Source: a virus | Strand: one strand, 5' to 3' | Virus record (IMG/VR): IMGVR_UViG_3300048828_000198 | Span: 1 to 28,256 of that record | DNA: 28,256 bases | In this document: in pieces, positions 2,318 to 28,256 of the stretch | How the letters are laid out: every line of letters begins with the position of its first letter | Position numbering within the stretch: position 1 is the stretch's first letter | Made by a program: the position numbers and the translations under genes | Notes under the pieces: generated by a model | What the model was told of the DNA's origin: nothing | What the model saw: only the letters and a program-made list of their open reading frames with translations | Database searches by the model: none

Positions 2318-2545
2318 ATGGGAAGTATTATAAGAAAAATTAGTATCGGGGCTGACTATAAAAACGAAGCAATGCATTACTCTGTTAAACAGACAGTTTA
2401 CGGCGGTCACGAGATTTCTCATATAATATTTGAAGAGTCTGATAATTCTTATAATATATTTATAAAAAAGGTAGACGAGGTAATGCCGTGGAAGAAGTTC
2501 AATTCTAACATGGCAATATCCGTTGAGTATGACTTAGAATATTAA
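2318..2545 (+). CDS. Small conserved phage protein of unknown function
   Basis: This gene codes for 75 residues. It opens with the motif IRKISIGADYKNEAMHYSV, which I have seen in small proteins near the packaging genes of other marine phages. The remainder alternates hydrophobic and polar residues (SHIIFEE, SYNIFIKKV, NMAISVEYDLEY) and looks like a small all-beta fold with a Trp-Lys (PWKKFN) element near residue 60. There is no catalytic signature, signal peptide or membrane segment. Its TAA overlaps the following ATG by one base (TAATG), which suggests translational coupling with the GroES-like gene. The function is unknown; the conserved position suggests a virion or assembly role, which is inference. 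Confidence 0.75.
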   Translation: MGSIIRKISIGADYKNEAMHYSVKQTVYGGHEISHIIFEESDNSYNIFIKKVDEVMPWKKFNSNMAISVEYDLEY

Positions 2546-3150
2546 TGCGAAGTATATATGATTTTATCGTAAAGCCCATAGGCCAAAGATACGATAACGA
2601 AGTTAAAGTTGGAGATCATACCCTTGTAACAAATAGCTCCATAGAAAGTTTTAAACATGTCAACAACATTGCCGAAGTAATTGAAACACCCGTTGCATTT
2701 GCAACACCAATTAAGAAAGGCGATTTGATTGTAATACATCATAATGTATTCAGGGTATTTTACGACATGAAAGGAACCAAAAAGAACAGTAGATCGTTTT
2801 TAAAAGACGGATTGTTTTTTTGCAGCATTGATCAAGTGTATTTATACAAGACAGATAAAACTTGGAAATCATTTGGAGGTAGATGCTTCGTTGCTCCGGT
2901 CAAAAATAAAGACGTTTTAAGCAGCGAAAAAACAGCTGACCTTATTGGTATACTGAAAATAGGTAATAGCTCTTTAAAGAGCGCTGGAATCAATCCAGGA
3001 GACATAATAGGGTTTACACCAGGTAGCGAATGGGAATTTGTTATAGACAATCAAATTATGTATTGTATGAAATCAAATGATATTGTTATAAAGTATGAAT
3101 TCGATAGAAACGAAGAAGAGTATAATAGCCGCTGGGCGAGAAGCAATTAA
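2545..3150 (+). CDS. GroES-like co-chaperonin with two GroES-type domains
   Basis: This gene codes for 201 residues. Residues about 5-103 and about 112-185 each resemble one GroES beta-barrel. The first has FIVKPIG, a region in the mobile-loop position (20-40), KKGDLIVIHHNVF (57-69) and FFCSIDQVYLY (91-101). The second has GRCFVAPVK, GILKIG, NPGDIIGF and ends MKSNDIVIKYE, matching the C-terminal SESDILAIV-type strand of GroES. In known systems (T4 gp31) a phage co-chaperonin pairs with host GroEL to fold the capsid protein; the same role is likely here, with the capsid gene about 6 kb downstream. Bacterial GroES is about 95-100 residues, so this is roughly twice that length. The start overlaps the previous stop by one base; the last 56 bases overlap the next gene. 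An alternative is a virion protein that only borrows the fold. Confidence 0.6.
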   Translation: MRSIYDFIVKPIGQRYDNEVKVGDHTLVTNSSIESFKHVNNIAEVIETPVAFATPIKKGDLIVIHHNVFRVFYDMKGTKKNSRSFLKDGLFFCSIDQVYLYKTDKTWKSFGGRCFVAPVKNKDVLSSEKTADLIGILKIGNSSLKSAGINPGDIIGFTPGSEWEFVIDNQIMYCMKSNDIVIKYEFDRNEEEYNSRWARSN

Positions 3151-13733: not shown

Positions 13734-16700
13734 ATGGCACAAGAAATTAAAAACACATTTCTAAAGTCCAAGATGAATAAAGATCTTGATGATAGAATAT
13801 TGCCTAACGGCGAATATAGAGATGCTCGGAACATATCAGTTGGTAGATCCGAAGATAATGACGTAGGTGCCTTAGAGAACATAATTGGTAACGACTTGGT
13901 TACCGGTACGGATATTGGTAATGGCTTGACTGTTATAGGTATTAAGGCAGATAACTCTACGGATAGATTATTTGTGTTTTTAACGGATTATACAGATCCA
14001 AACCCATTGAATCCCACTTCTGCTACTTCTACATCAAGGCATTATATATATTCTTATAATAATTCTAATGGAAATTACACTCTTTTAGTAGAGGGTTTCT
14101 TTTTAAACTTTTCTACCACTAATAGAATAACTAGCATTAATTTGCTAGAAAACTTATTATTTTGGACAGATAATAGAAATCAGCCTAGAAAAATTAATAT
14201 TAATTTAGCAACTACCGCAGGTATTAGCACATCTGTAGGCGGCCCAACCTATTATACTCAAGAACATCAAATATCCGTAGCAAAATATAACCCATATAAA
14301 CCTATAGAGCTTTACAATAGGATTGATCTTGTTGCCTTAAATCCTACTACAAATTCTTTTGAGGTATCAGGAAACAGACTAGCAGAGCTAACTCCTTTTA
14401 TAGGAGCTACTGTTATTTCTTTAGAAAATAACATAGAAGGCTTAAGCTACATAAAAGTTTCTAATGTAGCATTAAATTTAACATCAACGGAAACAATAGT
14501 TACGGTTTCACCTGTTTTTCCAGGAGGGGCGCCAACTGCAAATACATATATTTCGCTCATAAAATCTACTATGAGCAATAAAAATGATGATACCGATTGG
14601 CCCGGAGATCCCGACTTTTTGGAAGACAAGTTTGTAAGGTTTAGCTATAGATTTAAGTTTGATGACAACGAGTATTCTTTAATGGCTCCTTTTACTCAAA
14701 TAGCTTATATTCCTAAACAAAACGGATACTTTATTAATGGCGATGAAGATTCCGCTTATCAATCAACGATAGTTGATTTTATGGAAAACCAAATTCAAAA
14801 TATAGGATTAGTGATTCCATTGCCATCTTCAGGTACAAGATTAAATCCTGACTACAAAATTAGTGAGTTAGAAATATTATTTAGAGAAAGCGACGGTGTT
14901 GCGGTAAAAGTGCTAGAAAGTATTTCTTCAGGTCAAATTTCAGCCAGTGTTGGCGCAGGTAATTATTACAATTATGATTATCAATCAAGAAAACCATATA
15001 GAACATTACCTGAAGCTCAAACAGTAAGAGTTTACGACAAAGTACCGGTAAGAGCTTTTTCTCAAGAATCTTCAGGCAATAGAATAATATACGGTAATTA
15101 CAGAAATCAACACACCCCTCCGTCTAACTTAAATTACAATTGTAGAATTGCTAAAAAAAGCGGCAACGGAGCATATAATAATTGGGTAGAGTATCCAAAT
15201 CATTCGGTAAAAAGAAATAGAAATTACCAAATAGGTTTTGTATTAGCGGATAAGTTTGGTAGACAATCGCCTGTTATACTTTCTTCTGTTGATTTAGGAG
15301 CTACTGATAATGGAGAATTTTATTCAGGCTCAACAATATATAGTCCCTATGATTTACTGCCAAGCGACACAAATGTAAAAAATTGGTTTGGAGATGTTAT
15401 ACAGGTTTTAGTTAACGAACCTATAACATCGGATATTAATACTTCTACGGGTACTCCTGGTTTGTATGCTATAAAACAACAAGCTGCTTCTTCAGGAGAA
15501 GGCTTTGCAATTACGACGGGCTTTGTAGCGGTATCCCCTATAACTAATACTACTTTTACATTTACATTAGATAACACAACTTATCCTAACAACATAAATA
15601 TACCGCAAGTAGGCGATTCCTTAAGGGGTGCTTACGAGGATTTTGTTGTTGTAACCAATGTAACTAATTCTGCTGGATCCACATACGTTGTAACAACTAC
15701 TGGCAGGGTAAGCGATACTTATTTAAGAGCAGACAATCTGCCGGCTAATGTACCTGATTTAAAGTTCGCGTATACAATAAACGATTTAGGATGGTATAGC
15801 TATAAAATAGTAGTTAAACAATCAGAGCAAGAATACTACAATGTGTACCTTCCTGGTATACTTAATGGTTATCCTGGATTATCAGGTTTAATAGATCCTG
15901 ATTCTGCAACACACAGTGTTCCCGGGGGCGTTGATAATGGTTTATTTCCTACTAATGAGGTTAATTTAACAGCTCATGCTGTTTTATTTAATGATAATAT
16001 AAATAAAGTTCCTAGGGATTTAGTAGAAGTAGGCGACCAAGACAAGCAGTATAGAAGTTCTGTGACACTTTATGGTAGAGTTACGAACATAATGACTTCC
16101 GGCTCAGCATTACCTACTAATGAACAATACTATCCTAGGCTTGATTACAAAGGAATTAATGCTTTGTCTCATACGTCTACAGCGATAGCGCCGGCGAAGG
16201 ATTTTAACATGGGGTTTTCCGATTTAACTACAAACGTTGCTCAGTCCCCTTATGGTGGATCAGTACCCAGCAGTACTCAGCCACTTAATGGTAACAAGGT
16301 TTTTTATCAAATAGATACAAACCCCTTAATAGCTAGAATATCTACTACGGAAAAAGGAATTGGAGCAACCGCGAATACTCCCGCCGGTACACCCCCTATT
16401 CCTCCTGCTATGTTGCCGTTTTTAGCAGTATATGAAACAGCCCCTTTTGAATCAAATCTTGATATATATTGGGAAACCACTAGTGCTGGTTTAATTGTTG
16501 ACCTAAATGCTGCGGTATTAGAAGAGTACGAATCAATATCTGGATTAGAAAACTTTTCTTGGGACTTTGATGAAAGCTTTGTTTTTGATCAAAATGTAAC
16601 AGATTGGTTTGGATTAATAGATGCAACCGGTCAATCGTATTTGTTAGGAGCAGATGTGGAAATAGTGTCTGTGACAGACGGAGCAGGAAACGACGCTCAA

Positions 16701-18476
16701 AATTTATTTGAAATTGAAGAAGGCGCAGATCCGGGTCCTAATGCAAATAAATTTAGAATACTATATAAAGGTAATGGTATTGTTTTTGAGGAAGGCAGTA
16801 AAACATTAAATGTTTACGAGTTTGATTTAAAAATAACTACAGATACTGGCTTTATAAGCACCATAACTGTAGGAGGAGAAGAAGCAGGAGTAGGAGCTTT
16901 AAAAAATGTAACTCCTTCGTTTAATACTATAGCCCCTGTAGCTGTCAACGAAAATGACAGGGTAATAATTTCAGCCGCTACATGGGAAGCTGCTAACCCC
17001 CAAAACGGATCCTCTATAGATTCAGGAGGAGTTAGAAATCCGCAATTAGTTTACAGGTTTAAAGCAGCGCCGGGTGGCTCGTATCCTGATAACTGGGTTA
17101 TGGATCCAACAAATGGAGAATTAACACAGGCTACCCCTGCAAATCCAGTAGGGGCTACTTCAAGAAATTTCCAAGGTAACCCGCCGGGGATATACAATAT
17201 AATATTAGAACTCATTGATGCTAATGCGGAGGAGCCTGTTGGTACAGTGTCCCCTGCTTTTAATTCAATTGTAGAAACTCAGGCATTAGATGTAAGAATT
17301 ACGTACCCCCAAGTAAACTCAGGGGCTATTGATAATACTTGTATAATTACACCTACAGAAATAACCAGTAGCACTGCGGCTATAAATAATTATGACAAAG
17401 GGGCTAATCCAGACGAGCCGGATGAGCCGGAAGTTTGGAATTACAAAACTAGGATTTATTATATAGCTAACAATCCACCCCCAAACACAACTGTAGATCT
17501 TAATTATTTCATAGAAAACGGGGTAGTAGGAACACATCCATCGGAGCACACCACAGACATTTTTAGAATAGGGACGGAAGCTCACAAAGAAGGGGCTATA
17601 GTGCTTACTGCTAATGTATACGGCCCTACTATTAGTCAAGTTATACCCATGGAAGGAAGGCTCCACAGTGCTTCTTACTTTTACAGAATAGCCCCGGACC
17701 TTACTGATGCAAATGCAGATTTTAATCCTGCTTGGCTTCCAGTCACTTCATCTTTAGATTACAATTCTACTGGAGGCAATAGCAATAATATAAACAGCCC
17801 AGACGAAGACCTTCCGGATCCCGGAAACAATCCTATACAATGGCTAGGACCTGATAAGCTATGGCTGCAAAGCGTAAGAGCATTTGACCATAATGCGTTT
17901 AATGCAACTAGAGGCATTGAATATGTAGTAGTTTTAAACGGAGCATACTCAGTTTCTGGCGTAGCAGCCGGGCAGTCAAACGCAACACCTTGGTCCTGGG
18001 TACATGCTGATGATTTACATTATCCTACATGTGTGCCTTGGCAAGGAACAAACTTAGTTACATTAAACGGTGCAGGGAATCTGTTTAAGCATTACCGCTC
18101 AGCAGAAAGTACTTCTAGAACTGGATCGGTTACTGTTCCGGCTACTGACGAGGTTTGGAGTGATACTCCTTACGGGGAATATATTAATGAATTTTATACA
18201 ACTAGCGCTGGTAATGTTTCCTATTTTCCCGCAGACACAGCTATTCCCTATATAAACTTTACGTTAGACTTAACAAATATAACTCCTAATCCTGCCAAGT
18301 GGACATCGTTTGCTACCAGCGCTGGGCTTGATTTGAAATGGGTAACTGGATTTAACGGAAGTGGGCAAAAAATATTTACACCTGGGTTTGTGGGAGCAAT
18401 ACAAACTACTGCAGGAATAGATTCAGAAGTATTAGGACAATCTAAAGGCACTTTAAGAGTGTACAGAAAAACATAA
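13734..18476 (+). CDS. Giant tail hub protein, P22 gp10-like, first half of the tail muzzle
   Basis: This gene codes for 1580 residues. The N-terminal KSKMNKDLDDRILPNGEYRD (12-31) is a hallmark I associate with P22 gp10-like stabilisation/tail-tubular-B proteins. Further conserved blocks are DFLEDKFVRFSYRFKFDDNE (about 293-312), PFTQIAYIPKQNGYFINGDE and FMENQIQNIGLVIPLP. The protein is beta-rich throughout, with repeated short strands and no membrane helix, consistent with beta-propeller and Ig-like parts. Residues about 1059-1190 look like an inserted Ig/cadherin-type domain (VNENDRV ... GIYNIILELIDAN). Role: closes the portal channel and forms the tail tube/nozzle. Usual P22 gp10 is about 470 residues, so this is much larger. 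The next gene seems to continue the same hub. An acidic repeat DEPDEPE occurs near 1228. Confidence 0.72.
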   Translation: MAQEIKNTFLKSKMNKDLDDRILPNGEYRDARNISVGRSEDNDVGALENIIGNDLVTGTDIGNGLTVIGIKADNSTDRLFVFLTDYTDPNPLNPTSATSTSRHYIYSYNNSNGNYTLLVEGFFLNFSTTNRITSINLLENLLFWTDNRNQPRKININLATTAGISTSVGGPTYYTQEHQISVAKYNPYKPIELYNRIDLVALNPTTNSFEVSGNRLAELTPFIGATVISLENNIEGLSYIKVSNVALNLTSTETIVTVSPVFPGGAPTANTYISLIKSTMSNKNDDTDWPGDPDFLEDKFVRFSYRFKFDDNEYSLMAPFTQIAYIPKQNGYFINGDEDSAYQSTIVDFMENQIQNIGLVIPLPSSGTRLNPDYKISELEILFRESDGVAVKVLESISSGQISASVGAGNYYNYDYQSRKPYRTLPEAQTVRVYDKVPVRAFSQESSGNRIIYGNYRNQHTPPSNLNYNCRIAKKSGNGAYNNWVEYPNHSVKRNRNYQIGFVLADKFGRQSPVILSSVDLGATDNGEFYSGSTIYSPYDLLPSDTNVKNWFGDVIQVLVNEPITSDINTSTGTPGLYAIKQQAASSGEGFAITTGFVAVSPITNTTFTFTLDNTTYPNNINIPQVGDSLRGAYEDFVVVTNVTNSAGSTYVVTTTGRVSDTYLRADNLPANVPDLKFAYTINDLGWYSYKIVVKQSEQEYYNVYLPGILNGYPGLSGLIDPDSATHSVPGGVDNGLFPTNEVNLTAHAVLFNDNINKVPRDLVEVGDQDKQYRSSVTLYGRVTNIMTSGSALPTNEQYYPRLDYKGINALSHTSTAIAPAKDFNMGFSDLTTNVAQSPYGGSVPSSTQPLNGNKVFYQIDTNPLIARISTTEKGIGATANTPAGTPPIPPAMLPFLAVYETAPFESNLDIYWETTSAGLIVDLNAAVLEEYESISGLENFSWDFDESFVFDQNVTDWFGLIDATGQSYLLGADVEIVSVTDGAGNDAQNLFEIEEGADPGPNANKFRILYKGNGIVFEEGSKTLNVYEFDLKITTDTGFISTITVGGEEAGVGALKNVTPSFNTIAPVAVNENDRVIISAATWEAANPQNGSSIDSGGVRNPQLVYRFKAAPGGSYPDNWVMDPTNGELTQATPANPVGATSRNFQGNPPGIYNIILELIDANAEEPVGTVSPAFNSIVETQALDVRITYPQVNSGAIDNTCIITPTEITSSTAAINNYDKGANPDEPDEPEVWNYKTRIYYIANNPPPNTTVDLNYFIENGVVGTHPSEHTTDIFRIGTEAHKEGAIVLTANVYGPTISQVIPMEGRLHSASYFYRIAPDLTDANADFNPAWLPVTSSLDYNSTGGNSNNINSPDEDLPDPGNNPIQWLGPDKLWLQSVRAFDHNAFNATRGIEYVVVLNGAYSVSGVAAGQSNATPWSWVHADDLHYPTCVPWQGTNLVTLNGAGNLFKHYRSAESTSRTGSVTVPATDEVWSDTPYGEYINEFYTTSAGNVSYFPADTAIPYINFTLDLTNITPNPAKWTSFATSAGLDLKWVTGFNGSGQKIFTPGFVGAIQTTAGIDSEVLGQSKGTLRVYRKT

Positions 18477-18481
18477 TAAGC

Positions 18482-20059
18482 ATGGCTACAATTATAGAAT
18501 TAAAATATTTTAACACTTTTTGGCTAAAAAAGATAAAATCTATTACAGAAGTGGTGCCCGGCTCTACGTCTGTTTTTCAGAGTGTGCAAGGTACTAAAAC
18601 TATAAATATATTACCAGGGCTTCCTTCTGAAGAAATGAATGTTGGACAACAGGTTACTATGACATGGACGGACGCAATTTCAGGCCTTCCAATTACTTAT
18701 AATAGTTATGTAGAATCTTTAATAGTTGGAGACACTACTAAATTTGTAGCAGGTGAAGCACCTCCTGCTGGTGTAGTGGGTAATCCTACAATTACTTTTG
18801 GCAAAATAATTAATTTTAACAATATACCCCAGTCATACGATGGTAATGATGCTGATGACTGGCTAATTGAAGAATCAAGAATTAGAGGAGGGTATAATAA
18901 TACATCCGTTGACTTTGGAGTGAAAGCCTATGCTGTTGAAGATGAGCCTAACCAGTCCCATAAATTTAGTTCTTTAATACATTCTGGCATATTTAATTCT
19001 AGAACAGGCGTTAACCAAACTAATCAGTTTTCTGTAGGAGAGGACATAACAAGAACAATTGATCCAGCTAATGGCTCAATACAAAAGTTATATGCAGAAG
19101 ACACTAACCTAATTATTTTCCAAGAAAATAAAGTAAGTAAATCTTTAATTGACAAAGACGCAATATACTCCGCGGAAGGTAATGCAAGTATTACTAGCAG
19201 GCCTTTAGTCATAGGGCAGAATGTGGCTTATGCTGGAGAATACGGAATAAGCACAGACCCGGAATCATTCGCTGTAAACGGATACAGAAAATACTTTACA
19301 GACAGAGATCAAAACGTTGTTTGTAGATTGTCTATGGACGGCATTACTGTTATATCTGCTTACGGTATGACCGACTTCTTTAGAGACAAACTTTCTACCG
19401 CTGCGGATAATATAATAGGCGGGTGGGACGCGCATAACAAGCAATACGTATTGTCAATACCTCAGCAACTACAGCCAGGAGAGCCAGAAAAATATGATAC
19501 ACTAGCATTCGACGAAACATCAAAAGGGTGGGTTAGTTTTTTTACCTATCAACCCAATCAGATAATAAGTTTAAATAACAATTACTTCACAGCTAACACA
19601 GGTAAACTTTACAGGCATTATACATTAGCGCCAAATACACAAGCCAGAGGAGTGTTTTACGGAACGCAAGAGGAATCAAAAGTAACATTCGTGTTTAACG
19701 GAGCACCTTCAATGATTAAGAACTTTCAAACAATAAATTACGAAGGAGACTCAGGGTGGAAAATGGATAGCTTTAAAACTAATACGGATTTAACGTTACC
19801 TATAACAAGCTCTGTTTTTGTTACTACGTTGGAACAAATGCAAAACTCGTTATTAATAAACAGGTTTAAGTTAAAAGAAGATAAGTACTACGCTGACTTA
19901 GTTAATGGTACACCTTCGCAAAACGGCGAGGTTGTATGGGGTAGCTCATCATCAGGTGTAAAAGGATTCTTCGGAGAAGTAACAATGTCAGTAAATAATA
20001 GTAACGTCGGCAAAAAAGAATTGTTTGCCGTAAGCACTGGATTTGTAAAATCATCATAA
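18482..20059 (+). CDS. Tail hub protein, second half (P22 gp10-like propeller)
   Basis: This gene codes for 525 residues. Residues about 1-110 are a beta domain (EVVPGSTSVFQSVQGTKTIN). From 127 comes a strongly conserved block: WLIEESRIRGGYNNTSVDFG (127-146), then LIHSGIFNSRTGVNQTNQFS, DITRTIDPANGSIQKLYAED, LIIFQENKVSKSLIDKDAIY, YAGEYGISTDPESFAVNGYR and KYFTDRDQNVVCRLSMDGI. The repeated blade-like units with Asp-rich turns look like a beta propeller. I recall the same block in marine phages directly after the KMNKDLD-type protein. Together with the preceding gene (5-base gap) it probably builds the nozzle of the short tail. Splitting into two polypeptides is seen here; whether relatives fuse them was not tested. 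No catalytic residues are evident. Confidence 0.7.
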   Translation: MATIIELKYFNTFWLKKIKSITEVVPGSTSVFQSVQGTKTINILPGLPSEEMNVGQQVTMTWTDAISGLPITYNSYVESLIVGDTTKFVAGEAPPAGVVGNPTITFGKIINFNNIPQSYDGNDADDWLIEESRIRGGYNNTSVDFGVKAYAVEDEPNQSHKFSSLIHSGIFNSRTGVNQTNQFSVGEDITRTIDPANGSIQKLYAEDTNLIIFQENKVSKSLIDKDAIYSAEGNASITSRPLVIGQNVAYAGEYGISTDPESFAVNGYRKYFTDRDQNVVCRLSMDGITVISAYGMTDFFRDKLSTAADNIIGGWDAHNKQYVLSIPQQLQPGEPEKYDTLAFDETSKGWVSFFTYQPNQIISLNNNYFTANTGKLYRHYTLAPNTQARGVFYGTQEESKVTFVFNGAPSMIKNFQTINYEGDSGWKMDSFKTNTDLTLPITSSVFVTTLEQMQNSLLINRFKLKEDKYYADLVNGTPSQNGEVVWGSSSSGVKGFFGEVTMSVNNSNVGKKELFAVSTGFVKSS

Positions 20060-20071
20060 TAAAATAAAAAT

Positions 20072-20923
20072 ATGCCAGCACAAGCAATAATAGCGGCCGG
20101 AATAGGAGCCGCAGTAAATATAGTAGGAGGAATAATCGGGGGAGGTAAAGCCAGAAGGCAAGCCCGAGCAGCCCAAAGAGAAAAGGACAGACTTAATAGA
20201 GAAATGGCTATTTTTGAGCAAAATCGCCAGGATGTTATAAACCCGTTTTCAGGGGTTACATCTTTGTCCGGCATGATAGATGAAATGAGAGAAGACTTAT
20301 CAAATCCGTTCGCAAACTTAGGCGTTGCTACAAGCGCTGCGGAGATCCAGATGGAGCAAACAGATATAGCATTAGCAAATACACTAGATGCGTTACAAGC
20401 GACAGGAGCGAGTGCCGGAGGTGCTACAGCATTGGCACAGGCAGCTAAGCAAAGTAAGAAAGAAGTTTCAGCTAACATAGAACAACAAGAAGCACAAAAT
20501 GAAAAGCTGAGAGCGCAAGGCGAACAAGCGTTACAAGCTAAAGAAATGCAGCTTACGCAAATGGAAATGAGCGAGGAGGCTAGAATACAGCAAGCTGAAG
20601 CCGCTGGAGCACAATTTATGTTTGGTGCGCAGGAGGCAAGGGATATGGCTATGTTAGATAGAATGCAAGGAGGTATTGATCAAGCGGGTGTTAACCAGGC
20701 AAATGCCAATGCAGCTAGCGCAGCAAATACAGCGGCCATGATAGGGGGCATCAGTAGCATGACCGGAGCGTTATTGGGATCTGGGGCATTTGGAGGAGAC
20801 AATGATCCTATTAACCCGATTGACCCTGTAATACCACCCACGATACCACCTACAACTTCAACGACTTCTAATACCGAATCACAACTAGGCGGTTCTGTTG
20901 GGATTGGGGGCGCAAATGATTAA
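20072..20923 (+). CDS. Internal virion (ejection) protein, membrane-active N-terminus
   Basis: This gene codes for 283 residues. Residues 5-25 (AIIAAGIGAAVNIVGGIIGG) are a Gly-rich hydrophobic segment followed by a very basic stretch KARRQARAAQREKDR. A predicted coiled coil (about 120-200) contains GGATALAQAAKQSKKEVSAN and IEQQEAQNEKLRAQGEQAL, a block I recall from internal core proteins of marine podoviruses. A second Gly/Ala-rich segment follows (220-241), then a Pro/Thr-rich tail (PPTIPPTTSTT). By analogy with T7 gp14 and P22 gp7 it should be packaged inside the head and ejected to help DNA cross the envelope. It is not a secreted protein: the hydrophobic stretch starts at residue 5 without a cleavage site. 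The leader is A/T-only. Confidence 0.7.
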   Translation: MPAQAIIAAGIGAAVNIVGGIIGGGKARRQARAAQREKDRLNREMAIFEQNRQDVINPFSGVTSLSGMIDEMREDLSNPFANLGVATSAAEIQMEQTDIALANTLDALQATGASAGGATALAQAAKQSKKEVSANIEQQEAQNEKLRAQGEQALQAKEMQLTQMEMSEEARIQQAEAAGAQFMFGAQEARDMAMLDRMQGGIDQAGVNQANANAASAANTAAMIGGISSMTGALLGSGAFGGDNDPINPIDPVIPPTIPPTTSTTSNTESQLGGSVGIGGAND

Positions 20924-20933
20924 AATATAAAAC

Positions 20934-22457
20934 ATGAGTTACAGACAACCAAAAATAATTGATGACAAGTCAGGGCTTATAGTTCCTCAGGCTATGGCTC
21001 AAGGAGCGGCTATTTTAGCTAAAGGCATAACAGCTTTTGGCGTAGAAGAAAAAAAGCGTAAGGCTGAAGAAAAAAAGAAGGCAGAGCAAGATAACAGGCA
21101 ACTTATTGCTATAGGTAACGCTCATGCTAAAGACTCAGCTATTTTCAATGCTGGATTAAAAGACATGTCCGAAAGCATGCGTAACACTCTTATAGCGCGC
21201 AACGAAAGGAGTCTTAACCGCATTGACGAAATAAAACGCGCTCAGATCATAGATGGGAATGCAAGCCCCGCGCTATCAAAAGAGCTAGGTGAACTACAGC
21301 AAAATATTCTAGAGGGCAATTCTCTTGCTAAAACTATGATTGCTACTTCTGGTAATCTAGATACGTTACTTAAGGAGTACGAAAAAATGGGTAAGACAAT
21401 GTTTTACCGTAATGGAGAAGATGGGACTAACGAGCGATCAAAAGCTATAGTGCTTGGGTTTGGTGGTGCACCTGGTTACGATGCTGCAATGATTGAAGAG
21501 GGCGGAAAATTATACGCTCAAGTAACTGATAAGCAAAGTAAAAAAGTGTTTAAAATAGAAGCGTCTAAATTTCAAAGTATAGCTGATGACTTAATTGTTA
21601 ATGCTGTTGATATTGAAGGCCAAATGTCTACTATAAATTCCCAGGGAACTTTTAATAAAGACGGAAGTTTAGCTACTAGTTTAACTGTGGCTGCTGGAAA
21701 AGAAAGCCCTCTTAGCTCTAGAATGGACGGTAACAAAACAAAAGTTTTTTACAGAGACACTACATTAAACCAGCTTGCTGTTGACGCGGTTAAAAACAAA
21801 AGTTTTGAAAACGCTTTAGCCACTATCGAAGCTTCTGCGGATGATTCTCAATTAGAGCAAATTACTTTAGGCAAAATAGGTATTTCAGGCGATAAATACA
21901 AAACTTATAAAAACCTTGTGTCACGAGAAGAAAAGAATGCGATGATTAAAGAATCATCTAATGAGTTTTTTGACAAGCAATTAAGCCAAAAGGGTATTAT
22001 AAATGAAGGCGGTAATTATATTTACAGAAAAGATATACAGAAAGAAACCGTTTCTCAGGGAAGCGCATCTAAGCGCAAAGAAATAAACGCTATTATTGCT
22101 GGATTTAATCAAGGTTTGCCCGTGGTGGAAGGCAAGTATCAAAAAATAGAAGAAGCAGCATGGCTTAAAGCTTTCGACGACACTTACGTGATAAGCAATA
22201 ACAAAGGAGTTGCCAAAGGCAGCAAGGGCAAAGGGAGTCTGTACACACCTGTAGAACATTACAGAAAAGGCAACAAGGTTTTTGTTAAATTTACAAGCAA
22301 AAAAGATCAAGAGAGCACAGGCTCAACAGACTATAATGAAAGAAACTGGGATATAACAACGCTAGCGGGCTTAACGGGGTATATAATGGCCACAGAAAAT
22401 ATTACAAACTCAGAGGCCCGAGCTGAAGCAAAAAGACAACTATCTTATAAAAAATAA
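20934..22457 (+). CDS. Probable internal virion protein, function unknown
   Basis: This gene codes for 507 residues. After a short N-terminus comes a small hydrophobic patch (AMAQGAAILAKGITAFGVE, 20-38) and a Lys/Glu-rich coiled coil (39-56). The rest is mixed alpha/beta and strongly charged, rich in Lys and Asn, with no Cys-based metal site or hydrolase motif. The 10-base gaps on both sides, the placement between an ejection-type protein and the giant polyvalent protein, and the coiled coil suggest an internal cargo protein, analogous in position to T7 gp15. This is inferred from context; I do not recognise the family. The C-terminus ends ATENITNSEARAEAKRQLSY, an amphipathic helix. Confidence 0.6.
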   Translation: MSYRQPKIIDDKSGLIVPQAMAQGAAILAKGITAFGVEEKKRKAEEKKKAEQDNRQLIAIGNAHAKDSAIFNAGLKDMSESMRNTLIARNERSLNRIDEIKRAQIIDGNASPALSKELGELQQNILEGNSLAKTMIATSGNLDTLLKEYEKMGKTMFYRNGEDGTNERSKAIVLGFGGAPGYDAAMIEEGGKLYAQVTDKQSKKVFKIEASKFQSIADDLIVNAVDIEGQMSTINSQGTFNKDGSLATSLTVAAGKESPLSSRMDGNKTKVFYRDTTLNQLAVDAVKNKSFENALATIEASADDSQLEQITLGKIGISGDKYKTYKNLVSREEKNAMIKESSNEFFDKQLSQKGIINEGGNYIYRKDIQKETVSQGSASKRKEINAIIAGFNQGLPVVEGKYQKIEEAAWLKAFDDTYVISNNKGVAKGSKGKGSLYTPVEHYRKGNKVFVKFTSKKDQESTGSTDYNERNWDITTLAGLTGYIMATENITNSEARAEAKRQLSYKK

Positions 22458-22462
22458 ATTAA

Positions 22463-25400
22463 ATGAGCAAATACGTATACATAATAGGTGAAGAAACTGT
22501 AGAGTTTGATACAGAACAGGAGATGTTAGAACAGGTAGCTTTAGCTGAAGAAAAAGGTCTTTATGTTGAACCCGTAAGCGACCCTGAGGATGGAGACACC
22601 GCGGAAGTTAGCAAGGCACCAGAAAGTGCATTCAGCCAAGTAATATCAGGCGAAGTACCTGAAGTTGAAGAGGATTTTACACAAGACCCTGTAGAGAGTG
22701 CGGATGCAGTGTCGGAAACTGTAGCACAAGAAGATACGGAATTACTTTTGGACGATGGTTCTACGGAATTACCCTCAGGGGAAGACTATAGCATCGACGG
22801 TAAACCGGTTACTAAGAAAGAATATGAAATCTACGATGCTGAAGTAAAAGCTGATAAGCCTTTAGAATTAACTCTTAGCGAAGAAGACTTTACTGCTAAC
22901 GAAAAAAAGTGGGAAGAGGAATTTAAAAAAGGAGAGCTACCTCCCCCACCTGATTGGGATTTAGCAGGAAGGACTTGGACAGGCTTGAAAGAAACGACTA
23001 AAGAGATTGGAGCCTTAGCTACCACTTTGCCTACCTACTTAAACCAATTTATAGGGGCAGTAGACAGAGCCGTATTTATGGACGAAGCCGAAAAAGAAGT
23101 ATTCGATAGCCTTGATCCAAAGGTTAGGGCAGCTATATTAAATGTTCGTACTCCCGGGATTTTAGGCAACTTGCCGGGATCGCAAAATTTAGCTAACCAA
23201 GGCTTATTATATTACGAGGAGGCTTCTAAGGAAATAGAAAAAGTGCGAAGCAATATGGTGCAATTTGAAACCACCATAGGAGAAGAATATGCTAGAGGCA
23301 ATTTTGTTGAAGCTACGGCAAGAACAATCTCTGATGCAATAATCTCATTGCCTACTATGGCTCAAGCTATGATTCCTTACGTAGGAATAGCCTCAATAGT
23401 TTTATCCCAGGGATCAAAAGCAAACATGGAGGCTCAAAAAGAAGGAAAGCTTTTAGATTTAAAAACAATGGCTTATTCCGGAGTAATAGGTGCATCTGAA
23501 GGATTGTTAGAATTGGTAAGCAAGAAAATAGGAGGTGGGATGTTTAGAAGCCTAACAGGTAAATCTCGTCCTGTTATAAAGCAAGCGGTAAAAGATGTTT
23601 TTCTTAAGGTAACCAAAGACTATAACAAAGAAGGTCTTTCAGAAGAAGGTACATTCATAATAAACAGCATAGCAGAAAAAATATACTTAGGCAGCGAAAA
23701 AGAAGCTATAGACTATTTCAAGGAGGGCTTAGATACCTATTTAATAGGAGGAATGAGCGGTGGGGGTGTTTCATCCGTAGGCTCTTCAGCAAACGTATAT
23801 AATCAAATAATTGACGGGCGAAAAATTAAAGCTCAGCTTAACGAAACAGATTACACTGACCTATCAAATGCTTACAAAACTACAGAGGTGCCTGATGGGT
23901 TAGTAAACTTGTCTTTAAACCCATCTGTACAAGCGTTTTTAAATAAAGAGCTTGATGTTAAGCTGAAAAAAGGAGATATTACTATCGAAGAGTCTAATAA
24001 TATAAAAAGAAACTTCGCAGACACGCAAGGGGCGGCTAAAGCCGTGAACGCATCAACTATTTCAGACACTAACGCGGGAGAGGCTGTTGAGTTATTAACC
24101 GAAAAAACTAGGTTAGAGGCAGATATAAAAACGATAGGAGACAAATCTTTGTCTGGTCCTCAGCAACTTAGGGTTGACACCATAAAGACTTTACTTGACA
24201 AATTAGCTGGACAAGGCGTGCTCGATGCTAAAACAAAGAAAGCTGACGCTATATTAAAACAGCTTGGTGGTAAAGGAGTTGTAGAGGTTGGCAATGAAAA
24301 ACAAATGGCTGCTAAGTTTGATCAAATAAACAAGGAGGATCAAAAATTGCACGACGACGCTCAGCAAAAAGCTATAAAAGCCGGCGAAAAAACATTTAAA
24401 GTAGGAGAAACTGAATTTTCTGTAGATAGTCAATATAAAAGTAACGCACAAGAATTCGGAGGTTATGGAACTTATGTGCCAAGGCTAGACGGCACTGCCG
24501 AAGTTATTATAAACAAAGCAGTTGCTTTTGAAGACGGCATGGTTAACACAGCGGCTCATGAGGTATTACATTACGCCTTAAGAGAAACATTGAAATCCAC
24601 CGTAGCACAAAAGAAAACAGGGACTGCCTTGCTGGATTTTGTAAATAGCATAGAGACTACTGAGGACATTAAAGACAATGAATTTACAAGAAGGCTAAAG
24701 CAATACAAAGACGATGCCCGAATTACAGAAGGTGACACCCAGGAAGAGGTTTTAACTTTGTTAAGCGAAGCCATGCTTGACGGTAAATTAAAATTTAATG
24801 AAACCATGTCTACAAAGCTATTAGACTTTGGTAGAAGATTGCTAAGTTCTATGGGCTTTGCCTCCGTTAAATTTAATACAGGTAAAGATGTTTTTAACTT
24901 TATAAAAGATTACAATCGATCTATAAACAAAGGCAAGCTAGACAAAGGGCTTGCGGAATCCTTAAAGAAAGGTATAAAAGGCAAGCTAACTGATTCTACT
25001 ATAAAAGATCAGCCTAAGAAAAAACAATCCGTAAAACCTTCTTTAATCACAAACAAAGTCGATACAGCATTAGCTGCACTAGAAGAAGCCGAGGCTTTAA
25101 GAGACGAAGACTTTGACAATCCTACGCTTGCTGCAAATGTAGAGAAAGCAGAGGCTGCTTACGATCAAGCTTTAATAGAAGCTGAAAACCTAGAGGAAGA
25201 CGCGGCAGTTGATGTAGCAGAAGAAGCTACTAAAGAAAAAATAGTTAGACCTAAGGCGGATAAAACCAAAAGAAGGTACTCTTTAGACGCCGATGTAAAA
25301 AAAGAAATAGAGCCCCAAATTGCAGAAGCACAAGCATTAAACAAGGAATTAATAGCCCAGGAAAAAGAGCTTAACAAAAAAGCTATAGCAGACATAGAAG

Positions 25401-28256
25401 CAATCCCTGATAAAGAGGTAAAAAGAACAGAAAAAGATAAAAGGATAGCTGAGCTTAAGACTAATCCGTTAAGAGTTAGTAAATCTAATGAACTTAATAA
25501 GCTTGAGCGAGAAATATCTAAAGAGTTAAAAACCCCTATAGATAAAGCGGTAAACTTGTTCACAAAACTTTATTATGATAAAATATCTGATAACGCTAAA
25601 ACAGCTGTAACCAGGGATGAATTTAAAGAGTCTGCAAGAGCCGAAATTACAAGCATTACCATCAATGAGTTTAAACCCAAAACAATCAACAGGCAAGGCG
25701 AGAGCGTTGTTAACGACATTGAGGACATAATATTCCAAAGAGGTGGTTTACGCTTACGAAGCTTAGCGGAAAGATTAGGTGTTGTAGGTAGAGATCAAGG
25801 TGTTGCTAGGGGAGCAGAAGCTCTTATTAAAATGGCTGATTCATCTTCCGACATAAACTTCGATGAGAACGACAAAGATTCTGTAAAAAGCGAGGAGAAG
25901 CGCAAAGTTTCTGCGTTACTAGCTAGCGAAGCTCGATACAATCAAGCAAGAGAACAGGTTGTAGATTTTTGGAAAGAAAACGAAGGTAATACTAAAGTAG
26001 AAAACTTTAAAAAAGTACCCAACCTTATTAATAACATTCTTTCAGAAATGTTTAATGTTACGGAAGGAACATTGACTGCCAGATCCGGTAATCTTAATAA
26101 AGCTGATTATGCTAACGCTATAAAAGCATTTACTGAGAAACAAGCAGTATTTACTGTAAAAGAAGGTGACACTAAAAAAGAAGTAAGAGTGCCTGTATCT
26201 GAAGTTAGTGCTTTTCAAGACGGTTTAAATGAAAAGAAAGCGGATAACAAAGATTTTAGCTATAAAAGAGAAGCTAATGAATCAATAGCGGAAGCTTTAC
26301 TTAGATTTTTACCACAAACTAGCGCAGATGATTACACTTATGCAAGTGGGCGTAAAGGTAGATTCTCGGGAAAATCCACAGGACTACCTAAAAACCTTAT
26401 GGGTCTAGCCTATAAAATTGAAGGTAGAAAAACAACAGGTATTGGTAACGTTGAACGAACTGCACAAAAACTTACCGTAGAGGAAATATATGACGCTATT
26501 GGCGCAGGATTCGATGCTGATGGTAACGTTGTTCAAAAAATGGGTCTTAGCGGGAAAAATAAGGAGGGTCAAACTATGCTCGGGCTTATAAAACTGCTTG
26601 GTAGAATGGTTACTAACGAGATTAGTAGAACGGAAACTGATCTTGATCCGATGACTAAAATGGACATAGCTGCGGGTAAAAACCGCCTAATGTTTAGCAA
26701 GCGTAAAAAGAAGCTAGTTAATGCTCTAAGTAGTGCGGCGGGCGTTGAGGTAGATATATCTCTTTCCGAAAAGGCAGTAAACAATACTAGAAATTTATTT
26801 AAAGAAATTGGAAGCGAATTAGGTCCTAAAGAAACTGTAAAATATATAGTGCCTTTAGTTTCTAAGGGATACGGAAAGCTATTTTATACAAAAAATGGTA
26901 AACCTTTGTTTAAGCCCGGTAGAGAAACTCCGTTTAAAAACAGAGCAGATTTATTTGAAGCTTTAGGTACTGAAGATTTTAAAAAATTCCAACCTAGAGA
27001 CAGAGAGATAGAAATAGAAGGGGAAAACGTTATTTTAAAAATAAGTTTTAATCAAAACGCTAAAAATCTTGAAAAATTTGTAAATCAAATAGGAGATAGA
27101 AAAGACTTTGCTAAAGACCAGCGCGAGGGACTCAAGAAAATAGCAAAAATACTAAAATCAAAGCTACAAGAAGATTTTGAAGGAAATAAAGATGCTGTAG
27201 CCTCTGTGTTGCAAGCTATGAATTCCAATGTTAACGGCTTAATACGAACAGCAGCTATTCCCGAGCTTATGGCCTTAGATGTTAATTCAACAGAATATGT
27301 TTACGAGCATTCTAAAACAGCCTCCGACACAATGGTAGAGCTAGCTTTATTAATATTTGACAGCAATGCTAATATAAACTTTGACGAAAGGTTTAAAGAA
27401 ATAATGGAAGACTTTATCGTTTCTATAATACCCGCCCCTTACGATAAAGCACTTAATGAAGTTTCTAGATCAAACGGGCCTAGACAGGGTGACAGTAAGG
27501 GCGATTATACAAAGCCTCTTATTAAATCAAAAAACGGTATCCCTGCTAGGTACACGTATTCTGAATTTGTTTCTAAACTGATAGAGAAAGGCCTAGCTCC
27601 AATGAATCTTGTGCCTATAAACAAAAAAGAACTAAAAGCACATCTTAATTCTGTAAAAAGCAGTAAGAAACTTATAAACGAAAACACTAAATTACTTCCT
27701 AAAAACTTAAGACAAGAGGGTATTACTAATAATCAAGCTATTAAAAACGCGGAAAACTTTGATAAGGCGATAACCTTAGGCAACAGCTTAGACAAGCCAA
27801 GAAGAGGTATTAGCGTTTGGGATTTTGACGATACATTGGCAACAACTAAAAGCAACGTATTATACACAATGCCTGACGGAACTAAAGGCAAGTTAGATGC
27901 ATCGAAATTTGCGAAAGAAGGTGATACGTTTTTAGCTAATGGTGCTGAATTTGATTTTAGTGAATTTAGCAAAGTAATGAATGGGGACAAAGGGCCGTTC
28001 TTTAATAAAGCTGTAGACAGAAACAGGAAGTTTGGCAATAAAGATGTTTATATATTAACAGCTAGGCCAGCTAATAGTGCCAATGCTATACACGAGTTTC
28101 TTAAGGGTATCGGTCTTGACATTCCTTTAGCTAACATTACCGGGCTTGCAAGCTCAGATCCACAGGCTAAAGCTAACTGGGTTGTAGGTAAATTCGCAGA
28201 AGGATACAACGACTTCTACTTTGCTGATGATCATGTAGGTAATGTTAACGCGGTAA
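22463..28256 (+). CDS. Giant multidomain internal virion / polyvalent protein (3' end beyond window)
   Basis: The frame is open from the ATG at 22463 to the window end: 1931 residues without a stop. Order of parts: an acidic, disordered N-terminus (1-150); hydrophobic Gly/Ala segments near 291-316 (IISLPTMAQAMIPYVGIASI), about 333-358 and 424-450 (YLIGGMSGGGVSSVGSS); a zinc-metalloprotease-like domain with AAHEVLHYAL, His699-Glu700-His703, and a Glu-rich helix QEEVLTLLSEAM (760-771) that may give the third ligand; long Lys/Glu coiled coils (about 855-1030); alpha-helical regions of unknown role (1040-1770); and a HAD hydrolase domain with VWDFDDT (Asp1787, Asp1789), YILTARP (Thr1866) and FADDH (Asp1922, Asp1923). 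This layout matches polyvalent proteins, which phages package and inject. It follows the other ejection proteins by 5 bases. Function is inferred; enzymatic activity is untested. Confidence 0.75.
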   Translation, partial: MSKYVYIIGEETVEFDTEQEMLEQVALAEEKGLYVEPVSDPEDGDTAEVSKAPESAFSQVISGEVPEVEEDFTQDPVESADAVSETVAQEDTELLLDDGSTELPSGEDYSIDGKPVTKKEYEIYDAEVKADKPLELTLSEEDFTANEKKWEEEFKKGELPPPPDWDLAGRTWTGLKETTKEIGALATTLPTYLNQFIGAVDRAVFMDEAEKEVFDSLDPKVRAAILNVRTPGILGNLPGSQNLANQGLLYYEEASKEIEKVRSNMVQFETTIGEEYARGNFVEATARTISDAIISLPTMAQAMIPYVGIASIVLSQGSKANMEAQKEGKLLDLKTMAYSGVIGASEGLLELVSKKIGGGMFRSLTGKSRPVIKQAVKDVFLKVTKDYNKEGLSEEGTFIINSIAEKIYLGSEKEAIDYFKEGLDTYLIGGMSGGGVSSVGSSANVYNQIIDGRKIKAQLNETDYTDLSNAYKTTEVPDGLVNLSLNPSVQAFLNKELDVKLKKGDITIEESNNIKRNFADTQGAAKAVNASTISDTNAGEAVELLTEKTRLEADIKTIGDKSLSGPQQLRVDTIKTLLDKLAGQGVLDAKTKKADAILKQLGGKGVVEVGNEKQMAAKFDQINKEDQKLHDDAQQKAIKAGEKTFKVGETEFSVDSQYKSNAQEFGGYGTYVPRLDGTAEVIINKAVAFEDGMVNTAAHEVLHYALRETLKSTVAQKKTGTALLDFVNSIETTEDIKDNEFTRRLKQYKDDARITEGDTQEEVLTLLSEAMLDGKLKFNETMSTKLLDFGRRLLSSMGFASVKFNTGKDVFNFIKDYNRSINKGKLDKGLAESLKKGIKGKLTDSTIKDQPKKKQSVKPSLITNKVDTALAALEEAEALRDEDFDNPTLAANVEKAEAAYDQALIEAENLEEDAAVDVAEEATKEKIVRPKADKTKRRYSLDADVKKEIEPQIAEAQALNKELIAQEKELNKKAIADIEAIPDKEVKRTEKDKRIAELKTNPLRVSKSNELNKLEREISKELKTPIDKAVNLFTKLYYDKISDNAKTAVTRDEFKESARAEITSITINEFKPKTINRQGESVVNDIEDIIFQRGGLRLRSLAERLGVVGRDQGVARGAEALIKMADSSSDINFDENDKDSVKSEEKRKVSALLASEARYNQAREQVVDFWKENEGNTKVENFKKVPNLINNILSEMFNVTEGTLTARSGNLNKADYANAIKAFTEKQAVFTVKEGDTKKEVRVPVSEVSAFQDGLNEKKADNKDFSYKREANESIAEALLRFLPQTSADDYTYASGRKGRFSGKSTGLPKNLMGLAYKIEGRKTTGIGNVERTAQKLTVEEIYDAIGAGFDADGNVVQKMGLSGKNKEGQTMLGLIKLLGRMVTNEISRTETDLDPMTKMDIAAGKNRLMFSKRKKKLVNALSSAAGVEVDISLSEKAVNNTRNLFKEIGSELGPKETVKYIVPLVSKGYGKLFYTKNGKPLFKPGRETPFKNRADLFEALGTEDFKKFQPRDREIEIEGENVILKISFNQNAKNLEKFVNQIGDRKDFAKDQREGLKKIAKILKSKLQEDFEGNKDAVASVLQAMNSNVNGLIRTAAIPELMALDVNSTEYVYEHSKTASDTMVELALLIFDSNANINFDERFKEIMEDFIVSIIPAPYDKALNEVSRSNGPRQGDSKGDYTKPLIKSKNGIPARYTYSEFVSKLIEKGLAPMNLVPINKKELKAHLNSVKSSKKLINENTKLLPKNLRQEGITNNQAIKNAENFDKAITLGNSLDKPRRGISVWDFDDTLATTKSNVLYTMPDGTKGKLDASKFAKEGDTFLANGAEFDFSEFSKVMNGDKGPFFNKAVDRNRKFGNKDVYILTARPANSANAIHEFLKGIGLDIPLANITGLASSDPQAKANWVVGKFAEGYNDFYFADDHVGNVNAV

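Follow-up and report, generated by a model that had tools for sequence, protein, structure and literature searches.

The 28.3 kb DNA fragment analyzed here (the window) comes from a virus collection (IMG/VR record IMGVR_UViG_3300048828_000198, positions 1–28,256) and ends inside a gene for a giant protein in which a zinc protease site and a HAD hydrolase core had been noticed. The question raised by this locus is what such a protein is for, and whether it represents an undescribed host-takeover system, as first suggested, or a kind of virion protein that is already known.

Phage Affiliation and Gene Order

The genes of the window run in the order terminase (TerL), portal, capsid-type protein, head–tail proteins, muzzle, two cargo-type genes and the giant frame, with which the structural operon closes. 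The muzzle protein is encoded by two plus-strand genes that lie 5 bases apart (13734–20059), one for its N-terminal part (13734..18476, 1,580 aa; PF25731 at 48.1 bits, curated cut-off 27) and one for its C-terminal part (18482..20059, 525 aa; PF25729 at 46.3 bits, curated cut-off 27). Sequencing error is an unlikely cause of this split, since the muzzle is also divided into two genes in Maribacter phage Panino and in three longer relatives. By profile similarity, these two matches above cut-off put the window phage among the crAss-like phages or close to them; the Crass_capsid model gave 17.2 bits, under its cut-off of 27. The nearest annotated phage that we found was Panino, a cultured podovirus infecting a marine flavobacterium, which suggests that the host of the window phage is a member of the Bacteroidota. 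A GroES-like protein is encoded in the window (2545–3150), in relatives (L097–L107) and in Panino (L109), and GroEL is annotated in Panino and was recognized by eye in the same relatives.

Two plus-strand genes separate the muzzle genes from the giant gene. The product of the first (20072..20923) is a small ejection-type protein, a conserved neighbor upstream of the giant gene in relatives, whose Gly/Ala N-terminus resembles T7 gp14 by eye. The second (20934..22457) encodes a cargo-type protein and adjoins the giant gene with a gap of 5 bases. The order of muzzle, two small genes and giant was observed in the window, in its near-identical relative L002 and in three longer relatives. The genes that follow the muzzle gene in crAss001 specify cargo proteins, which mass spectrometry detected in virions (PMC10172136). 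The position of the giant gene corresponds to theirs, in keeping with the prediction that it closes a block of virion or ejection genes.

Extent and Parts of the Giant Frame

The giant frame begins with an ATG at 22463 and runs on the plus strand without a stop to 28255 (aa 1–1931; window end 28256). It is still open at the last base of the window, as the contig end cuts the coding sequence and leaves its 3′ end incomplete. The frame of L002 likewise has no stop and breaks off very near this position, which bears out the single open frame of at least 1931 residues that had been described. Giant proteins that reach a stop in relatives mostly have 2,370–3,606 residues, and given the lengths of those in L005 (3,210; its HAD and that of L002 share 99% identity) and L007 (3,606), the window would cover slightly over half of the giant protein.

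All parts that could be delimited lie on the plus strand. A domain at aa 160–460 (22940..23842) is common to Panino and contains a hydrophobic stretch at aa 296–314 (23348–23404). This is the single membrane-grade stretch in the giant protein, where several Gly/Ala hydrophobic segments had been expected. The predicted zincin metallopeptidase domain (aa 640–870; 24380..25072) is followed by a module that could not be assigned (aa 1000–1415; 25460..26707), which is predicted, for the most part confidently, to be mostly helical with small alpha/beta parts; homologues of its two halves were found in 20/81 and 27/81 sequences. Near the end of this module is the point 'RLMFSK' (26684..26701); beyond it, identity to L002 is ~65% instead of >90%, and L005 continues with a different module. 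Comparison with relatives then marks out an exchangeable module (aa 1420–1740; 26720..27682) and, at the end, the HAD phosphatase core (aa 1783–1931; 27809..28255), which is without its last residues because the contig ends. The HExxH and HAD sites are 1,088 residues apart, ~900 of which lie outside the enzyme modules, instead of the ~700 residues first estimated. No Pfam model, including those of polyvalent domains, matched the giant frame above cut-off, and the matches to Spidroin_N and WWC1, being below it, were treated as chance. A BFVD fold search with the middle part of the protein gave no match at E <= 0.001.

The Predicted Zincin Protease

The HExxH site was found where it had been reported, at aa 699–703 (24557–24571), and a glutamate, E762 (24746–24748), lies 59 residues further on. 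Shuffled copies of the window protein contained an HExxH in 0.25% of trials. In an alignment of 49 homologues (A2), nearly all of them 16–40% identical to the window, H699, E700 and H703 were kept in at least 90% of the sequences and E762, the third ligand, was invariant; the domain as a whole varies widely in sequence, with a mean column identity of 22%. An HExxH with a later glutamate is the pattern given for the metallopeptidases of polyvalent proteins (PMC5512222). As judged from this conservation, the predicted zincin-type site in the giant protein is real.

Comparisons with characterized families were less definite. Resemblance of zincin members to peptidase families was mainly to metallopeptidases (M78 in five members, M90 in one, DUF2268 in one), all of it weak; LPD26 matched 2/49 members of A2, with a best E of 0.073, and a PDB sequence search with the zincin profile gave nothing significant. 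Structure prediction, which had been proposed as a check on both enzymes, gave a mixed picture of the zincin: two predicted strands precede the helix that contains the HExxH, and E762 falls in a helix further along the chain, but Foldseek with a 1,001-residue slice containing the zincin matched no metallopeptidase, probably because that slice is long and mostly helical.

The Predicted HAD Phosphatase Module

All four HAD motifs (D1787xD1789, T1866, K1903, D1922-D1923; motif region aa 1787–1923) were invariant in 29 sequences. Motif I, at 27821, is DxDxT; motif II, at 28052, is the threonine, motif III the lysine and motif IV, at 28226, the paired aspartates. A second aspartate at position +2 from the first distinguishes phosphatases within the HAD superfamily. 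The protein is thus predicted to contain a real HAD core of phosphatase type with all four motifs, and its description as a complete-looking core holds for these motifs but not for the end of the domain, which is missing at the contig end. For this module, the structure-prediction check returned the expected fold: block pLDDT values were mostly 79–93 across the domain, and class C acid phosphatases were the top PDB matches, with other HAD phosphatases among the next (probability 1.00, E only 0.01). All fold matches had E >= 0.01, and they include one solved structure with NMN bound.

At the level of sequence, the profile of phage polynucleotide kinases (PHROG 415) matched the HAD of L005 with E 4e-7 and that of the window with 4e-5. 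The Pfam HAD model weakly matched 16/29 members, and a PDB sequence search with the HAD profile gave nothing significant. We infer a role as a 3′-phosphatase from a weak family match. In jumbo phages, the repair of RNA ends involves phosphatases of the polynucleotide kinase type and HAD phosphatases of the 'Swiss-army-knife' kind (PMC7824862), and because of this we rank end repair first among the possible roles. In a collection of 84,980 genomes, the HAD was found in 13 contigs, all from MAGs and several of them short; these are probably phage sequences binned with their hosts, so a cellular origin of the module was rejected.

The HAD is itself a site of insertions. Two relatives have differing domains, ADP-ribosyltransferase-like by eye, inserted at the same position of the HAD cap (L012:7443-7970 and L070:7569-7877), the latter with a weak resemblance to ART-PolyVal (Pfam E 0.032). 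Another insertion occurs in L007 (8499-10016) and at the equivalent position of L006, L008 and L009, where a domain several hundred residues long is flanked on both sides by a copy of a short stretch that resembles the HAD end; the L007 insert contains 'NPWC'.

A Fixed Architecture in an Uncultured Phage Group

A scan with the HAD of L002 showed that the module is encoded in at least 593 IMG/VR stretches. In the best 80 of these at least 593, it lies in long frames that are giant unless a contig end cuts them. As these 80 giant frames were chosen by the presence of the HAD, its occurrence in 80/80 is by selection. An iterated HMM found the zincin in 64/80 of the same best-scoring frames. Among the 75 giants with at least 1,300 residues upstream of the HAD, 74 have an HExxH located 876–1,207 residues before it (0.6% in shuffles), and 72 of these 74 have exactly one. 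Domain order in relatives, another proposed check, is therefore HExxH then HAD in nearly every protein sampled, and the view that these modules are seldom combined in one chain is not upheld: the predicted zincin and HAD are a fixed architecture in this phage group and are not rare. The C-terminal ~700–800 residues past the HAD, present in relatives, are also well conserved (alignment A5, mean column identity 43%) and had no Pfam assignment above chance level.

The picture is different in phage records outside this group. Neither the HAD nor the zincin module had a match in 50,697 GenBank phage records, a longer query gave one weak match, to an uncultured 462 kb phage, and the zincin–HAD layout was found in none of the cultured phages searched.

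Module Exchange and Junctions

Nucleotide identity between the window and L002 is ~80–99% over most of the muzzle genes, falls at ~20,650, returns to ~92–98% at ~22,620, which is 53 residues into the giant frame, and falls again at ~26,700. The sharply bounded block exchanged between the two (~20,650–22,620) takes in the last part of one cargo gene and all of the following gene, and extends over the first 53 codons of the giant (22463..22621). That the giant's first residues move as one with the cargo gene before them suggests that the two products touch, with the upstream product contacting the N-terminus of the giant. L005 has modules in common with the window protein but another one before the HAD. 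Overall, comparison of the predicted proteins indicates a conserved layout, in which the zincin, a span of ~1,000 residues, the HAD and, in relatives, the conserved C-terminal ~700–800 residues follow one another, and around which other modules are exchanged.

The tripeptide FSK is over-represented (237 vs 59 expected), and recurrent [KQ]x[FY]S[K] motifs flank the HAD and end many zincin modules in the giants of relatives (L004–L083). These motifs may be processing or junction sites. The related motif [K/R]x[F/Y]S is enriched directly before and after the HAD, and was enriched at block ends only before de-duplication; over 99 non-redundant block ends there were 15 vs 10.8, a difference without significance (z 1.4), and as a set of cleavage sites at module borders it is only a lead.

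Function of the Giant Protein

We think it rather probable that the giant is a cargo protein of ~3,000 residues, belonging to a marine phage with a crAss-type virion, which is packaged, injected and cut by its own zincin, and whose HAD trims phosphates from nucleic acids or nucleotides. Injection, cleavage of the chain and the HAD substrate are what we infer. The protein would be packaged in the head or tail, with its N-terminus docked on the product of the upstream gene, and would be threaded into the host before the DNA. The zincin would then cut its own chain between modules, and the freed HAD would remove phosphates from nucleotides or the ends of nucleic acids, with 3′-phosphates of damaged RNA or DNA as the likeliest target, and so protect or repair molecules that the phage needs. 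The conserved C-terminal part may be a scaffold or part of a channel.

Processing of the chain is the role favored for the zincin of polyvalent proteins, although the same survey (PMC5512222) also names an effector role, the cleavage of host proteins following entry, as a possibility. The latter, in which the zincin would leave its own chain uncut, fits the sequence diversity of the domain and has a modest chance of being correct, but an HExxH at a near-constant place in 74/75 relatives suggests a permanent component more than an effector that is exchanged. It is also conceivable, though we consider it unlikely, that the giant is chiefly ejection machinery, with a zincin that matures the virion or opens the envelope and a HAD that serves in assembly or is a structural relic. 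The gene order after the muzzle is like that of podoviral ejection genes, the giant has one hydrophobic stretch, and its other large, generally conserved part is the C-terminal region; the invariance of all HAD catalytic residues, however, argues for enzyme activity. About equally improbable to us is that the HAD works in anti-defense, where it would break down or rebuild nucleotide signals or NAD intermediates, and not in repair. Signal-targeting enzymes have been proposed as cargo of polyvalent proteins (PMC7824862), and the fold matches to class C acid phosphatases and the entry with NMN would suit such a role, but those matches have weak E-values and the family match is to polynucleotide kinase.

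The position of the giant gene equals that of the crAss001 transcription block, which raises the question of whether the protein is a diverged component of a virion RNA polymerase. The cargo of crAss001 includes three large polymerase-associated proteins (PMC10172136), a polymerase block is present in nearly all crAss-like groups, and their RNA polymerases are highly diverged (PMC7886860). We regard this as very improbable here, as no DxDxD-type motif occurs in the window protein or in Panino's giant, only three scattered, chance-like cases occur in the 80 giants, and the conserved enzymes are a zincin and a HAD. In three relatives of 58–69 kb (possibly incomplete contigs), there was no giant-sized frame other than this one and the muzzle and fibre-like ones, and no transcription block with a DxDxD polymerase was seen; no RNA polymerase is annotated in the Panino genome, which was deposited as complete. 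In L005 and L021, the giant is followed by opposite-strand genes of nucleotide metabolism (ribonucleotide reductase and thymidylate synthase, by eye). Replacement of the polymerase by the giant is put forward as a possibility, because the contigs may be incomplete. More tentatively still, and with the balance somewhat against it, this may be an abundant marine branch of uncultured crAss-like phages in which the slot of the virion RNA polymerase was given over to a protease–phosphatase giant, the zincin, HAD and C-terminus forming a chassis for swapped enzymes that include the ADP-ribosyltransferase-like domains in the HAD cap (L012, L070).

Comparison with Known Systems

Several known proteins resemble the giant in part. 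The crAss001 genes gp45–gp50 (PMC10172136) have the same arrangement, in which two smaller cargo genes and then a giant follow the muzzle gene, but the crAss001 giants are RNA-polymerase-associated, whereas that of the window has a zincin and a HAD and no polymerase motif that we could find. The giant of Panino (PP540027.1, WZE63588.1) lies in the same gene order and has a related N-terminal domain (29% identity across 304 residues), yet no homologue of the HAD or zincin was detected in the rest of its chain. A relationship between the conserved C-terminus and that of Panino was considered and rejected (hhalign probability 0.5%). The Panino giant (L003:19920-25409) is annotated 'tRNA methyltransferase', probably after one exchangeable domain, which misnames the whole chain. 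Phage polynucleotide kinase phosphatases (PHROG 415) are alike through the profile match, but here there is no kinase domain and the HAD is inside a giant chain. DdrB of phage P1 is a polyvalent protein with a metallopeptidase and is processed before packaging (PMC5512222); its other domains differ from those of the window giant, and the likeness drawn here is by description.

The closest parallel is with the polyvalent proteins of Iyer et al. 2017 (PMC5512222), which are likewise giant chains of unrelated enzyme domains with a zincin hub, encoded among late virion genes and probably injected. The best reading of the giant is that it is in kind with these proteins, and its prediction as polyvalent, with a zincin and a HAD in one chain, stands. 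To call it an undescribed host-takeover system was too strong, since no domain is more frequent in polyvalent proteins than the zincin (PMC5512222) and the combination is fixed in this phage group. It differs from them in that no Pfam polyvalent domain matched at the curated cut-off and in its HAD, as the words 'haloacid' and 'phosphatase' are absent from the text of the 2017 survey; a match to a curated polyvalent-domain model helps to recognize such proteins but does not strictly define them. If our reading is true, infection by hundreds of aquatic phages, none of them found among cultured ones, begins with delivery of the same protease–phosphatase pair, and the presence of a phosphatase in the polyvalent repertoire would point to repair or signal removal as an initial infection step. 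The module exchange would be a natural experiment that separates fixed parts from effectors in injected giant proteins. Compared with the systems above, what is new is the HAD, its fixed pairing with a zincin across a large group of uncultured phages, and the exchange of whole modules.
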